Assembly (NCBI GenBank): GCA_900539695.1
Contig: UQDG01000008.1
Location: forward strand, 24,463 to 88,462
Direction of reading: 5' to 3'
DNA: 64,000 nucleotides
DNA from: an uncultured Oscillospiraceae bacterium
Lineage (GTDB): Bacteria > Bacillota > Clostridia > Oscillospirales > Ruminococcaceae
The translations under genes were made by a program, and so were the position numbers. This document shows, piece after piece, positions 23,828-64,000 of this stretch (its first letter is position 1; every line of letters begins with the position of its first letter). The notes under the pieces are model-generated. The model ran no database searches. It had not been told where the DNA came from and saw only the letters and a list, made by a program, of their open reading frames with translations.

Positions 23828-23866
23828 CTTAAGGCAAAATTAAGCTGGGCTTACGGGGCAGATAAG
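23828..23866 (+). promoter_or_regulatory. Four 11-bp-spaced direct repeats, likely response-regulator operator
   Basis: TTAAG at 23829, TTAAG at 23840, TTACG at 23851 and ATAAG at 23862 are exactly 11 bases apart, the helical spacing of OmpR/PhoB-family boxes. A TATACT at 23877-23882 follows, giving an expected start near 23889. No good -35 hexamer is present, as at many activator-dependent promoters. Confidence 0.6.
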
Positions 23867-23896
23867 ATTTGGCGTTTATACTGGGCTTGTACTTAA

Positions 23897-24068
23897 GGCA
23901 ACACCGCACAATTCCCGCCTGACGGCTTAAGCACCGCTCCGGCGGCCGCGGCACGGCATCTGCGTTGCCAAAATGCTCGATAATACACAAAGTATTATCT
24001 GCGCTTTTGGCTTAGCATCTGCCGCACCTCGCTCGCCGTATCGGCACTTAGAATTATGCGGTATTGCC
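23897..24068 (+). mobile_element. MITE-like element, copy 1 (172 bp)
   Basis: Imperfect inverted ends (GGCAACACCGCACAATTC against GGCAATACCGCATAATTC, 16 of 18) bound a sequence that folds along most of its length, with an inner GATAATAC/GTATTATC stem. TTAA directly flanks both sides (23893-23896 and 24069-24072), consistent with a 4-bp target duplication. It differs from the copy at 37830 by two substitutions and has no coding capacity. It separates the probable ABC promoter from the ATPase start. Confidence 0.85.
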
Positions 24069-24096
24069 TTAAGATACGAGTAAGGAGCGTGTGACT

Positions 24097-25017
24097 ATGC
24101 AAAACGTGATTGAAACCGACGCCCTGTGCAAGCGCTATGGCAGCCATCTGGTGGTGGATCATCTGGCGCTGACCGTGCCGGAGGGCTGTGTCTACGGCTT
24201 TTTAGGCCCCAACGGTGCGGGCAAATCCACCACGATGAAGATGCTGCTGGGTCTGGTGCACCCCACCGGCGGCACGGTGCGGCTGCTGGGCCGGGAGATG
24301 ACCGACGCCAACCGCCTGGCTCTGCTGCGGCAGACCGGCAGTCTGATCGAGTCGCCCTCCGGCTACCTGCACCTGACCGCGCGGGAGAATCTGGAGATCG
24401 TGGCCGACTTAAAAGGTGTGCCCCACAAGGACATTGCCCGTGTACTGGACATTGTACAGCTGACCAATGACCAGCACCGCAAGGTGGGGCAGTATTCGCT
24501 GGGCATGAAGCAGCGGCTGGGCATCGCCATGGCCCTGCTGGGCAGTCCCAAGCTGCTGGTGCTGGACGAACCCACCAACGGCCTGGACCCCGCCGGTATC
24601 CAGGAGATGCGGGAACTCATCCGCACCATGCCCGCCGCCACCGGAGCCACTGTGCTGATCTCCAGCCATCTGCTGGGCGAGATGGAGCAGATGGTGGAGC
24701 ATGTGGGCATCATCGACCATGGGCGGATGCTGTTTGAAGGCCCGCTGACTGAACTGCAGCGCCACAGCAAGGGTGCGCTGACCCTGCGGCTGCTGCACCC
24801 TGCCAAGGCTTTGCCGGTGCTGCAGGCCAACGGGCTGCCCACCGCCGCAGTGGGCGAGGATAACACCATCGCCCTGCCGCCCCTGCGAGATGACCTGCTG
24901 GCGGGCCTGGTGCAGGCCTTAGCGGACAGCGGCGCCGGGGTGGTGGGCCTGACCCAGCACACCAGGACGCTGGAGGAAATTTTCCTGACGCTGACCGCGC
25001 CGAAGGAGGTGGGCTGA
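24097..25017 (+). CDS. ABC transporter ATP-binding protein, lantibiotic/bacitracin protection type
   Basis: The 306-residue ATPase has Walker A GPNGAGKST (about residues 38-46), signature YSLGMKQRLG, Walker B LLVLDEPTNGLDPAG and the switch His in ISSHLLGEMEQ. It closely follows the BcrA/MutF/NisF group, which exports or expels cationic peptides from the membrane. AAGGAG lies 9 bases before the ATG at 24097; a GTG two codons upstream is too close to it. It heads a three-gene operon with two permeases (one base, then three bases between genes) and is divergent from a two-component system. A 172-bp repeat element lies in its leader. Confidence 0.92.
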   Translation: MQNVIETDALCKRYGSHLVVDHLALTVPEGCVYGFLGPNGAGKSTTMKMLLGLVHPTGGTVRLLGREMTDANRLALLRQTGSLIESPSGYLHLTARENLEIVADLKGVPHKDIARVLDIVQLTNDQHRKVGQYSLGMKQRLGIAMALLGSPKLLVLDEPTNGLDPAGIQEMRELIRTMPAATGATVLISSHLLGEMEQMVEHVGIIDHGRMLFEGPLTELQRHSKGALTLRLLHPAKALPVLQANGLPTAAVGEDNTIALPPLRDDLLAGLVQALADSGAGVVGLTQHTRTLEEIFLTLTAPKEVG

Positions 25018-37788: not shown

Positions 37789-37828
37789 GCTGGCACCCAT
37801 CTGAATAGGTGCCAGCCGTTTTGTTTTT
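37789..37828 (+). terminator. Terminator after the large membrane protein gene
   Basis: GCTGGCACC (37789-37797) pairs with GGTGCCAGC (37808-37816) and is followed by a T-rich tail ending in TTTTT. A 172-bp MITE-like element is inserted directly after this tail. Confidence 0.85.
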
Positions 37829-37829
37829 A

Positions 37830-38001
37830 GGCAACACCGCACAATTCCCGCCTGACGGCTTAAGCACCGCTCCGGCGGCTGCGGCACGGCATCTGCGTTG
37901 CCAAAATGCTCGATAATACACAAAGTATTATCTGCGCTTTTGGCTTAGCAGCTGCCGCACCTCGCTCGCCGTATCGGCACTTAGAATTATGCGGTATTGC
38001 C
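37830..38001 (+). mobile_element. MITE-like element, copy 2 (172 bp)
   Basis: It has the same length as, and 170 of 172 identical positions with, the element at 23897-24068, including both inverted ends. The 4-bp TTTA flanks it on both sides (37826-37829 and 38002-38005), a second independent target duplication. The right-hand duplication contains the stop codon of the minus-strand NYN gene. The element fills the whole space between that gene and the terminator of the convergent gene. Confidence 0.85.
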
Positions 38002-38002
38002 T

Positions 38003-38821
38003 TTATTTACTTTTCCTTGTCGTCCGCCGTTTGGTGGTCGTTTTCCGTGCCGCTTTTTTCGGCGCGGGGGCCGGGCGCATGTGGACGAACTGGATCGGAT
38101 TGCCATTGGCCAAAATGCGCTCTTCCACTTCCAGTTCCGGCAGGGATGCCAGGAACTTGTTCAGGCTCTTGGAGCCGAAGTTGCGCACATCAAAGTCCGG
38201 GTAACGCTTGATGAGCTGGTCGCCCACGCGGGAGGTGCGCACCCAACCGGTGCCGTCGTCCATCTCATCGATCATGCCGTCGATGATGCGGCCGATGGAT
38301 TCGCGGTTGATGGCGGTATCGTCCCCTGCGGCGGCGCGGGCACCGGCTTCGGCGGCAGGCACCGCCGGGGCGCTGTCGGCCTCACCATGGTCCAGGATCA
38401 GGTCCAGATACTTGAACTGATCGCAGGCTTTGACAAAGGGACCGAGAGCCTTGCTCTCGCCCATGCCGATGACCAGCTTGCCGGCCTCCCGCAGACGGGC
38501 GGCCAGGCGGGTGAAGTCACTGTCCGAGGACACGATGCAGAACCCATCCAGGTTGCCGCTGTACAAAAGGTCCATAGCATCGATGATCATGGCCGAGTCG
38601 GTGGCGTTTTTGCCGGTGGTGTAGCTGTACTGCTGGATGGGGATGATGGAGTTGTTCAGCAAAGCATCTTTCCAGCTTTTCAGCCGCACGTCCGACCAGT
38701 CGCCATAGATGCGCTTGCAGGCAGCCACGCCAAAGGACGCTGCTTCGTCCAAAATCACCTTTACATATTTTGGCGAGATGTTGTCCGCGTCAATGAGAAT
38801 CGCAAGTTTCAGGTCCTGCAT
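38003..38821 (-). CDS. NYN-domain RNase-like protein with LOTUS/OST-HTH domain
   Basis: The 272-residue protein starts with a NYN (LabA/DUF88) nuclease-like domain: acidic residues in AILIDADNIS (about residues 7-16), NATDSAMIIDAMDLLY, and SSDSDFTRLAARLRE form the PIN-like metal site. The second domain (about 185-245, VRTSRVGDQLIKRYPDFDVRNFG) fits the OST-HTH/LOTUS RNA-binding fold. The tail is highly basic (KKAARKTTTKRRTTRKSK). This suggests RNA cleavage or RNA handling. The start at 38821 has GAGG upstream and lies 4 bases after the rRNA methyltransferase stop. A MITE-like element sits at the stop codon. Confidence 0.87.
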   Translation of the reverse strand: MQDLKLAILIDADNISPKYVKVILDEAASFGVAACKRIYGDWSDVRLKSWKDALLNNSIIPIQQYSYTTGKNATDSAMIIDAMDLLYSGNLDGFCIVSSDSDFTRLAARLREAGKLVIGMGESKALGPFVKACDQFKYLDLILDHGEADSAPAVPAAEAGARAAAGDDTAINRESIGRIIDGMIDEMDDGTGWVRTSRVGDQLIKRYPDFDVRNFGSKSLNKFLASLPELEVEERILANGNPIQFVHMRPAPAPKKAARKTTTKRRTTRKSK

Positions 38822-38825
38822 AGGC

Positions 38826-39965
38826 TTACCTCTTCTCGCGCTTGGGCTGCTCAAAGTACATATACAACTGGCACGGGATCATGCCGTTGTAAATTTTGCG
38901 GCGACGGGCGGCCTTTTTGCCAAAATGCTGCTCAAAGTCAGCATCGGCGGTGATGGCATACAACCCCTGCGCCGGGTGGCGCTGCCAGACCTGGCCCAGC
39001 GTTTTGGCCAGGGCGGCGGCTTCGCCCGCGTCGCCCAGGCGCTCGCCATAGGGCGGGTTGGTCAGCACGGTGGCGGCGTCGGCAGCGGTAAAGTCCTTGA
39101 CGTCGGCCACCTCAAAGCGGCAGCGCTCCCCCACGCCGGCCAGCTTGGCGTTAGCGTTAGCCAGGGCCACAGCGGCGGGGTCGATGTCGTAGCCGATGCC
39201 CTCAAAGGCGGCATCGGTGCGCACCTCGGACAGAGCTTTCTGGCGCTGCTCGGCCCAAATAGACGCGGGCACAAAGTCGAAATGCTCGGCGGCAAAGCGG
39301 CGGCGCAGGCCGGGGGCCAGGTTCAGCGCTTTCTGGGCAGACTCGATGACCAGCGTGCCGGAGCCGCAGAACGGGTCCTGCACCAGACTGTCGCGGCGCA
39401 CGCGGCCCAGGTCGGCAATGGCAGCGGCCAGCGTCTCCTTGATGGGGGCCAGCGTGGCGTTTTTGCGGTAGCCGCGCTTGTGCAGGCCGTCGCCGGAGGT
39501 ATCGAGGTAGATCTCCACGGTATCCTTGCGCAGGGCAAAGCGTACCTTGTACAGTGCGCCGCTTTCCGGCAGAGTGCTGGTCTTGTGGCCGGCCATCAGG
39601 CGCTTGACAATGGCCTTTTTTACGATGCTCTGGCAGGCGGGCACGCTGGAAAGCTGGCTGGACAGGCTGGAACCCTTGACCGGGAAGGCCGCGTCGGCAG
39701 GCAGCAGTTCTTCCCAGGCGATGTTGTAGCAGCCGTCGAACAGTTCATCAAAGGTGGTGGCCTTGTAGGTAGCCAGCAGCAGCAGCACACGCTCGGCGGT
39801 GCGTAGGTTCAGGTTGGCGGCGGCGATGATGTCGGCCCCGCCCTGGAACGCCACGCGGCCGTCGGTGACCTGGATGTTCTGGGCACCCAGGCGCTTGACC
39901 TCAAAGTTCAGCGTGGATTCGGTGCCGAAAAAGCACGGCGCCACCATGGTATACAGTGTAGGCAT
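38826..39965 (-). CDS. THUMP-domain 23S rRNA guanine-N2 methyltransferase (RlmL/YpsC family)
   Basis: The 379-residue protein has an N-terminal THUMP RNA-binding region (about residues 45-160, with FDELFDGCYNIAWEELLP and KGSSLSSQLSSVPACQSIVKKAI). The SAM methyltransferase shows DPFCGSGTLVIESA and the catalytic VLTNPPYGERLGD (NPPY motif). Short Gram-positive members of this family correspond to the N-terminal half of RlmL and modify 23S rRNA. The ATG at 39965 follows AAAGGAT. It is co-transcribed with the NYN-LOTUS gene, both of which act on RNA. Confidence 0.9.
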   Translation of the reverse strand: MPTLYTMVAPCFFGTESTLNFEVKRLGAQNIQVTDGRVAFQGGADIIAAANLNLRTAERVLLLLATYKATTFDELFDGCYNIAWEELLPADAAFPVKGSSLSSQLSSVPACQSIVKKAIVKRLMAGHKTSTLPESGALYKVRFALRKDTVEIYLDTSGDGLHKRGYRKNATLAPIKETLAAAIADLGRVRRDSLVQDPFCGSGTLVIESAQKALNLAPGLRRRFAAEHFDFVPASIWAEQRQKALSEVRTDAAFEGIGYDIDPAAVALANANAKLAGVGERCRFEVADVKDFTAADAATVLTNPPYGERLGDAGEAAALAKTLGQVWQRHPAQGLYAITADADFEQHFGKKAARRRKIYNGMIPCQLYMYFEQPKREKR

Positions 39966-63943: not shown

Positions 63944-64000
63944 TGGTGACCCGTGCGGGAATCGAACCCACGTTAACGGCGTGAGAGGCCGCTGTCTTAA
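63944..64000 (-). tRNA. tRNA-Glu (anticodon CTC), 5' part beyond the window
   Basis: The minus strand shows the anticodon stem-loop CGGC-CTCTCAC-GCCG with anticodon CTC, the T-loop GGTTCGATTCC in a perfect stem, the acceptor end GGGTCA, and an encoded CCA. The D-arm and the 5' acceptor strand are cut off at 64000. Confidence 0.9.

Follow-up and report, generated by a model that had tools for sequence, protein, structure and literature searches.

A 172-bp MITE of Clostridia with IS5-family ends and a conserved fold that may act as RNA

The window considered here, i.e., the whole stretch of 64,000 nucleotides analysed from an uncultured Oscillospiraceae bacterium, holds two copies of a short repeat close to several genes. 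Their features, in order of position, are the following.

23878..23883, plus strand: TATACT, putative -10-like box for the ABC-transporter operon, immediately upstream of copy 1
23893..23896, no strand: left target duplication of copy 1 (TTAA), from the sequence and from orthologous loci, empty in 18 of 18
23897..24068, minus strand (the strand with the conserved fold): element copy 1, 172 bp, from sequence and alignment
23897..23914, plus strand: terminal inverted repeat of copy 1, C-form GGCAACACCGCACAATTC, by end-sequence match
23917..23926, minus strand: small side hairpin of copy 1 (columns 143-152 of alignment A1; covarying CG/GC)
23970..24007, minus strand: conserved core of copy 1, consisting of AAAGCGCAG, a variable 19-nt stem-loop, and CGAGCATTTT
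24051..24068, minus strand: terminal inverted repeat of copy 1, T-form GGCAATACCGCATAATTC, by end-sequence match
24069..24072, no strand: right target duplication of copy 1 (TTAA), from the sequence
24097..25017, plus strand: ABC transporter ATPase gene with copy 1 in its leader; start ATG by inspection, the listed ORF running from 24091
37826..37829, no strand: left target duplication of copy 2 (TTTA), from the sequence
37830..38001, minus strand: element copy 2, 172 bp, with two differences, from the sequence
37830..37847, plus strand: terminal inverted repeat of copy 2, C-form, by end-sequence match
37850..37859, minus strand: small side hairpin of copy 2, positions by alignment
37903..37940, minus strand: conserved core of copy 2, by core pattern
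37984..38001, minus strand: terminal inverted repeat of copy 2, T-form, by end-sequence match
38002..38005, no strand: right target duplication of copy 2 (TTTA)
38003-38854, minus strand: NYN-domain gene, whose TAA stop codon lies inside the right duplication of copy 2

The initial annotation described these copies accurately. Both are 172 bp long and differ at two positions of the element, 51 (C/T) and 122 (T/G). The first 18 bases agree with the inverted last 18 at 16 positions, and the two mismatches of copy 1 are C.A on the plus strand and G.U on the minus strand. Each copy lies between its own 4-bp direct repeats (TTAA/TTAA and TTTA/TTTA), the interior pairing GATAATAC/GTATTATC is present along with strong self-pairing, and, as had been stated of their coding capacity, neither copy contains an ORF of 90 aa or more. 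The 18-base end occurs four times in the window at up to three mismatches, compared with 0.20 expected in shuffles. There is no third copy in the window, where the remaining BLAST matches (E up to 1) are the arms of the element itself and stretches of 13-19 bp. A tRNA gene at 63947-64000 is cut by the window end and is absent from the ARAGORN output.

Copy 1 is placed, in an alignment of 10 orthologues, between the -10-like box and the ribosome-binding site of the ABC-transporter operon. The TATACT box is presumably what its match to the general consensus suggests, and a TA-rich stretch occupies its position in most of the 10 orthologues. A promoter and terminator scan around copy 1 did not flag this box and returned no terminator-like site; its one promoter-like site, with 0.6 expected, is on the minus strand near a response regulator. 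Upstream of copy 1, at 23828-23844, there are CTTAAGGCAAAATTAAG-like boxes that recur in the aligned Gemmiger orthologues, and the adjacent response regulator may bind there. Copy 2 sits between convergent genes.

Could the repeat be a host regulatory element, such as a terminator or an mRNA-stability or processing hairpin, for which transposition is merely ancestral? An operon leader and a convergent intergenic region are places where such a sequence might be expected, and the hairpin is very stable. Even so, this account is very improbable: the scan found no terminator near copy 1, many copies occupy different sites with exact duplications, and 51 copies show no evident preference for context or orientation. 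Relative to the neighbouring genes, 21 are divergent, 13 convergent, 10 opposed, and 7 co-directional (22 of 73 elements, at contig ends or with no ORF within 500 bp, were dropped). Because there is no orientation bias, a role for the element itself is favoured over the control of host genes.

Transposition, which had been claimed from the two copies, is supported by empty sites at copy 1 and by exact duplications at many copies. All 18 orthologous loci of copy 1 (L334-L351; 12 weaker and probably paralogous loci, L352-L363, are omitted from this count) have both flanks and no match to the element. The distance from flank to flank departs from the empty length by no more than 7 bp in 8 of the 18 and by no more than 15 bp in 9, and the remaining orthologues have up to 135 bp of other sequence between the flanks. 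The 24 loci compared for copy 2 (six weaker ones, L388-L393, omitted) say little about empty sites, given that the left gene is found in 5, at a distance of 0.9-1.1 kb, and not found in 19; one of these loci, L369, has a 37-bp match to the element. As for the flanking 4-mers, the duplications are exact at 51 of 73 Gemmiger-clade copies and at 35 of 46 elements in 20 stretches of the genome G005. In three partly overlapping sets, 34 of 51, 27 of 35, and 52 of 64 duplications fit YTNA or its complement, compared with 3.3% of the 4-mers of the window. An ORF running across the element is absent in 49 of the 51 copies with called neighbours.

The element is patchily distributed. The genes beside the copies have 73-87% identity to orthologous loci in the genus of G001, Gemmiger formicilis ATCC 27749, which makes the source of the window a Gemmiger-like gut bacterium. 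The element is matched in 7 of 35 genomes of this genus, with 23-32 BLAST matches in four, element pieces included, and 0-1 in the other 31. At the level of the family of G001, it is found in 12 of 297 genomes. The exact end pattern is present in at least 115 stretches of the genome collection; among the matches listed, these belong mostly to Ruminococcus, Ruminococcaceae, Oscillospiraceae, Clostridiales/Clostridia, or Gemmiger, and some to Anaerotignum. Isolated matches in other phyla (L023, L027, L113) lack a convincing second end accompanied by a matching duplication and are probably due to chance. From 128 records, 97 candidate end pairs were obtained, alternative pairings of single elements included, and 66 of them have an exact 4-bp duplication; lengths of 172 bp (20 pairs) and 161 bp (14 pairs) dominate among these 66. 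With up to two mismatches, the end occurs 20 to 466 times in each of eight genomes, and the reversed control gives zero. Related elements are matched in 26 human-gut 'phage' contigs, with no annotation on the 20 matches listed, and in four Subdoligranulum plasmid records. The load is heavy in G005, a Ruminococcus MAG from sheep with a genome of 2.1 Mb: 237 forward and 229 reverse end matches correspond to about one element per 9 kb.

In short, the repeat is what a MITE is: short, non-coding, and multi-copy, with inverted ends, a constant 4-bp duplication, and presence or absence among relatives. The suggestion that it was recently active is plausible. The window copy has 98-99% identity to copies in other genomes, but the search of Gemmiger genomes gave no matching transposase.

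Another question is which enzyme moves the element. The proposed search for a full-length insertion sequence with GGCAAYACCGCAYA ends was successful in part: such elements, of the IS5 family, are found in relatives, but none in the Gemmiger genomes that were searched, which include G001-G003 and G346 and gave no partner transposase at E 1e-20 or better. A search of 23 genomes with the PF13612 profile gave matches in four, one of which led to a partner locus in G312. Here, an ORF lies between GGCAACACCGCATAACTG and an inverted GGCAACACCGCACAGAAA, 1134 bp end to end, and its product is an IS5-family transposase (NCBIfam NF033581, E 7.5e-97; PF01609, PF05598). Relatives of this transposase are present in 8 of 59 repeat-bearing genomes (E 1e-20 or better) and, at 1e-60 or better, at 22 places in 16 of the 394 genomes of the order.

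When 24 IS loci were inspected, fragments or neighbours of one copy included, at least one matching end (up to one mismatch in 14) was seen in 14. The ends follow the protein: they match at 14 of 17 loci with at least 69% identity to the query protein P0001 and at 0 of 7 below 50%. Two facing ends, 1020-1150 bp apart, are present at 7 of the 24 loci, and three of these seven have exact 4-bp duplications (CTAA, TTAG, and TTAA); some ORFs of the partner loci are broken. Seven further relatives of the transposase (L216-L222), with 31-59% identity, are without matching ends. In G315, one IS (L215) has a GGAAACACCGC end and the same genome carries a repeat with GGAAAYACCGC ends (L019:1063-1202); the other repeats of G315 start with the usual GGCAA. 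The IS5-clade elements of the relatives are likely the autonomous partner of the MITE, and the prediction that an IS5-clade transposase would move it in trans is well supported by the ends, the duplications, and the empty sites.

A number of other candidates were set aside. IS701 was considered because it makes 4-bp duplications, as stated in the available part of PMC2266710, and its domain PF13546 is found in 0 of 8 genomes carrying the end sequence. PF01609 gave 12 matches in seven of eight genomes, none bracketed by matching ends; at two of these loci, a repeat or a single end lies beside the gene. PF13586 matched in 3 of 23 genomes and yielded no partner. In Anaerotignum, a 1577-bp candidate has two end matches 1.5 kb apart, and the ORFs between them do not look transposase-like by eye. 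REP/RAYT and IS200/IS605-type hairpin elements are not known to make a target duplication and use an HUH transposase; the exact 4-bp duplications speak against an element of this kind.

The reading as a MITE holds for the mobility of the repeat; it is incomplete because the interior, missed in the initial annotation, seems to be more than passive filler, with a conserved fold that favours one strand. Compared with the seven partner ISs, convincing similarity is confined to the terminal 12-17 bp. Interior matches are 12-21 bp at E 0.15-0.5; in three ISs, 12-15 bp lying about 100 bp from an IS end match element positions 18-32. The idea that the element is an internal deletion of an IS5-family IS is not supported, as the seven have no convincing subterminal sequence in common with it, and the interior is not clearly IS-derived.

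What, then, is this interior? The predicted fold begins with a stem formed by the ends; further inwards there is a small 3'-side hairpin, then a long stem, which leads through an internal loop to the apical stem. The minus strands of 63 distinct 172-mers align gap-free, and in their consensus structure of 67 pairs, 97.4% of 4221 cells are paired, compared with 31-48% in slid controls. Changes on both sides of a pair affect 21 of the 67 pairs (145 cells), against 0 of 500 shuffles, a control that leaves shared ancestry in. In Rfam 15, the element has no match at the gathering threshold and copy 1 none at E up to 5.

Covariation could be mimicked in a plain MITE with a functionless interior, if the palindrome were upheld by template switching or by correction of one arm against the other. 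Such an account, which agrees with the terminal inverted repeats, the duplications, and the IS5 partner, is in our view rather unlikely, and several features of the fold go against it. One of them is the small hairpin beside the main axis (columns 143-152), which covaries as CG:40 and GC:23 among the 63 Gemmiger sequences. In Gemmiger it can form on both sides in 58 of 63, and outside Gemmiger it is on the 3' side in 39 of 58 elements and on the other side in 17 (14.6 in shuffles). Another is the conservation of the unpaired internal loop (columns 67-69 and 91-92), in which C68, A69, and A92 are invariant and G67 and G91 are kept at 90% or more; its letters recur in several other families, where the apical stem varies.

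A third feature is the polarity of the strands. Copy 1 has a predicted folding energy of -104.0 kcal/mol on the minus strand vs -79.3 on the plus strand. The minus strand is the more stable one in 68 of 68 copies (average -100.0 vs -79.6), and the same holds for 69 of 71 elements from three length classes, whose orientation was set by identity or end state; the common ancestry of the copies bears on these comparisons. Simulated unbiased decay of a perfect palindrome produced a difference of at least 20 kcal/mol in 6.7% of 300 runs, so the gap seen in one element proves little.

The mismatches add to this. At Watson-Crick-major pairs in Gemmiger, G.U exceeds A.C by 98 to 15 cells (rare cells, 38 to 15, p 0.002), and C>U and A>G changes alike show the excess. 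Restricted to pairs common to the structures of both strands, the count is 28 to 10 (p 0.005), and with the structure of the complement strand the rare cells are 41 to 26 (p 0.086). The 161-bp class (26 to 18, p 0.29) and Anaerotignum (11 to 3, p 0.057) go in the same direction and are not significant, and at end position 6 the minus strand has C.A in 11 of 63 copies. Arm-to-arm correction is blind to the strand, yet G.U outnumbers A.C on one strand in Gemmiger. A G-U argument to judge the folding strand is also used in the available text of PMC2864571.

Because of the G.U excess, an RNA form is moderately supported over a DNA form. Hairpin ends of IS200/IS605 elements and attC sites are single-stranded DNA folds needed for mobility, and the fold described here might likewise function as a DNA single strand, e.g., while the element transposes or when it is on the lagging strand. 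Strand polarity and covariation would suit any single strand, as would the lack of orientation bias towards genes, and the available part of PMC11109978 leaves RNA or DNA open for the similar hairpin MRSC-65-2. Nevertheless, a DNA fold required for mobility is improbable, given that the 4-bp duplications and a DDE transposase as partner (PF01609) point to double-strand cut-and-join chemistry.

Size variants of the element are also informative. Ten of the 15 regions compared contain a complete element. Exact duplications flank 3 of 4 elements of 99 bp, 1 of 2 of 236 bp, 4 of 4 of 283/284 bp, and the one of 348 bp, seen in two loci. The larger variants gain a 68-nt arm at the side loop (L399:422-489), a 112-nt multi-hairpin module at the apical loop (L400:384-495), or both. 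These modules occur in the 283-, 236-, and 348-bp forms, and elsewhere in the sequences compared there are only two weak partial matches to the side arm (L311, L353); neither module has an Rfam match (E up to 1). The 112-nt module is present in six gut contigs and absent from the plasmid records searched. That arms join at loops speaks against a functionless interior.

At the other extreme, 35-bp palindromes made from the two ends are found at eight loci (L028, L052, L073, L084, L087, L095, L104, and L125) and at L225, L227, L230, L231, and L237. Nearly all are flanked by matching 4-mers, and in G005 the duplications are exact at 6 of 7 (the sets overlap), so that judged by sequence these are very small transposed units. 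Their insertion with little beyond the ends is a point in favour of the plain MITE, and the fact that 35- and 99-bp forms move without the core speaks against single-stranded DNA as a requirement for mobility. A 295-bp element at L019:7521-7815 has a second palindrome, with GGAAACACCGAACAAAGG ends, nested inside.

The core is not restricted to this element. It is a hairpin made of the internal loop GCA/GA and a covarying apical stem, and its pattern, AAAGCRCAG-N19-CGAGCATTTT with up to one mismatch, is found in 19 of 391 Clostridia genomes, with 0 in all for the reversed control. Among the free 19-mers of the exact pattern, 28 of 42 distinct ones pair completely, counting all sequences gathered, Gemmiger copies included. 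Their 294 cells are 264 Watson-Crick, 13 G.U, 4 A.C, and 13 other, and the comparison of 13 G.U with 4 A.C (p 0.049) has its strand fixed by the pattern itself.

Most core-pattern loci have ends other than those of the 172-bp element. Among 30 loci, GGCAAYACCGCA ends are seen in L414 and L431, both from G. formicilis, and a distant form in L413; other loci have ends such as ACCTCTAAAGATTCG and TTGTAAAATGTAATTGG, and longer elements of about 270 bp end in sequences like GGCATAAGGGAG or ACCTGAACG. Inverted repeats served to define these ends; few of them have duplications longer than 2 bp, and several loci (e.g., L418, L422, L427, L433, L434, L436, and L440) have no ends assigned. The strand polarity of the 172-bp element recurs in L412, L413, L424, L425, and L426. 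The elements of about 270 bp have no consistent polarity, the complement being slightly or clearly more stable in 8 of 11, which counts against a universal RNA-strand signal and agrees with the plain MITE. A core-hairpin relative lies 3' of OLE RNA (Rfam RF01071) in L424:808-1447, L425:1595-2232, and L428:1796-2433, possibly a single inherited insertion.

These observations suggest a broader picture, offered tentatively as it falls somewhat short of probable: a mobile RNA module, i.e., one hairpin core captured or exchanged among transposon-like elements with unrelated ends across Clostridia, kept for the service of the RNA to the element, and with arms added at its loops. In any case, a functional structured nucleic acid inside the element is supported because of the covariation, the side hairpin, the conserved loop, the loop-bound modules, and the re-use with other ends.

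The reading that we prefer, with a probability of roughly 0.6, is that of a MITE whose ends are of the IS5 family and whose interior is a conserved structured nucleic acid; an RNA of the minus strand is its most likely form. An IS5-family transposase of the NF033581 clade would recognise the GGCAAYACCGCAYA ends in trans and insert the element at AT-rich, YTNA-like 4-mers, mostly intergenic, duplicating 4 bp. One strand would then form a long hairpin: its ends close in a stem, a small hairpin branches off at the side, the internal loop hardly varies, and the apical stem covaries freely. On that strand the fold would be kept by selection, with G.U tolerated; because G.U is allowed on the folding strand, A.C mismatches would be left in the other. 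The fold would serve the element, e.g., by giving it a small RNA or by forming a hairpin for insulation or processing. Insertion, IS5-clade ends, covariation, strand polarity in several classes, modular arms, and the core under other ends are all seen in the sequences compared, and from them we infer movement by the transposase, transcription of the strand, and a fold that serves its carrier.

MITEs are commonly regarded as inert deletion products dependent on a borrowed transposase. The ends of this one fit an IS5 clade that can be named, yet inside there is a conserved, modular, strand-polar fold, and its core recurs under other ends. If the fold is RNA, it would amount to a non-coding gene spreading like a transposon through common gut bacteria, and the question why long hairpins are retained in some bacterial MITEs could be tested directly. 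The asymmetry of G.U and A.C could also be a general way to separate selection on RNA from selection on DNA in palindromic repeats: a G.U pair of the folding strand corresponds to A.C on its complement, which leaves the RNA able to fold and weakens the DNA cruciform. A keyword search of the literature on MITEs, on Gemmiger, Faecalibacterium, and Subdoligranulum, on IS5, and on structured RNA found no published report of the element.

How does the element relate to known systems? RUP, Correia/NEMIS, and BOX are small palindromic mobile repeats of bacterial intergenic regions, some of them transcribed into hairpins. The 172-bp element is alike in being small, palindromic, mobile, and intergenic, and it differs in duplication and partner; for RUP, these are TA and the IS630 type. 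With the IS5-family ISs of the NF033581 clade it has in common the 14-bp ends and, where exact, AT-rich 4-bp duplications, whereas those ISs are 1.02-1.15 kb long and contain a transposase gene. Porphyromonas gingivalis has IS5-family MITEs (MITE239, MITE464, MITE700, and BrickBuilt) that are likewise short, non-coding, and multi-copy, with ends matching full-length IS5-family elements (PMC4596501). Their end sequences differ, and the part of that paper available describes no conserved strand-polar fold (PMC4596501).

A survey of ncRNA in 50 genomes lists mobile or repeat sequence candidates (MRSC), such as MRSC-65-2, recognised by inconsistent orientation; in the available text, a link to a transposase is considered possible and the choice of RNA or DNA is left open (PMC11109978). 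One of the other 249 MRSC candidates of this survey may in fact be the 172-bp repeat. MRSC-65-2, as described in that text, is similar in its long covarying hairpin and its dozens of copies per genome, and it has a UYCCGG repeat unlike the core of the 172-bp element (PMC11109978). What sets the 172-bp element apart from MRSC-65-2 as presented there is that its ends are defined, 4-bp duplications flank it, and an IS is likely its partner.
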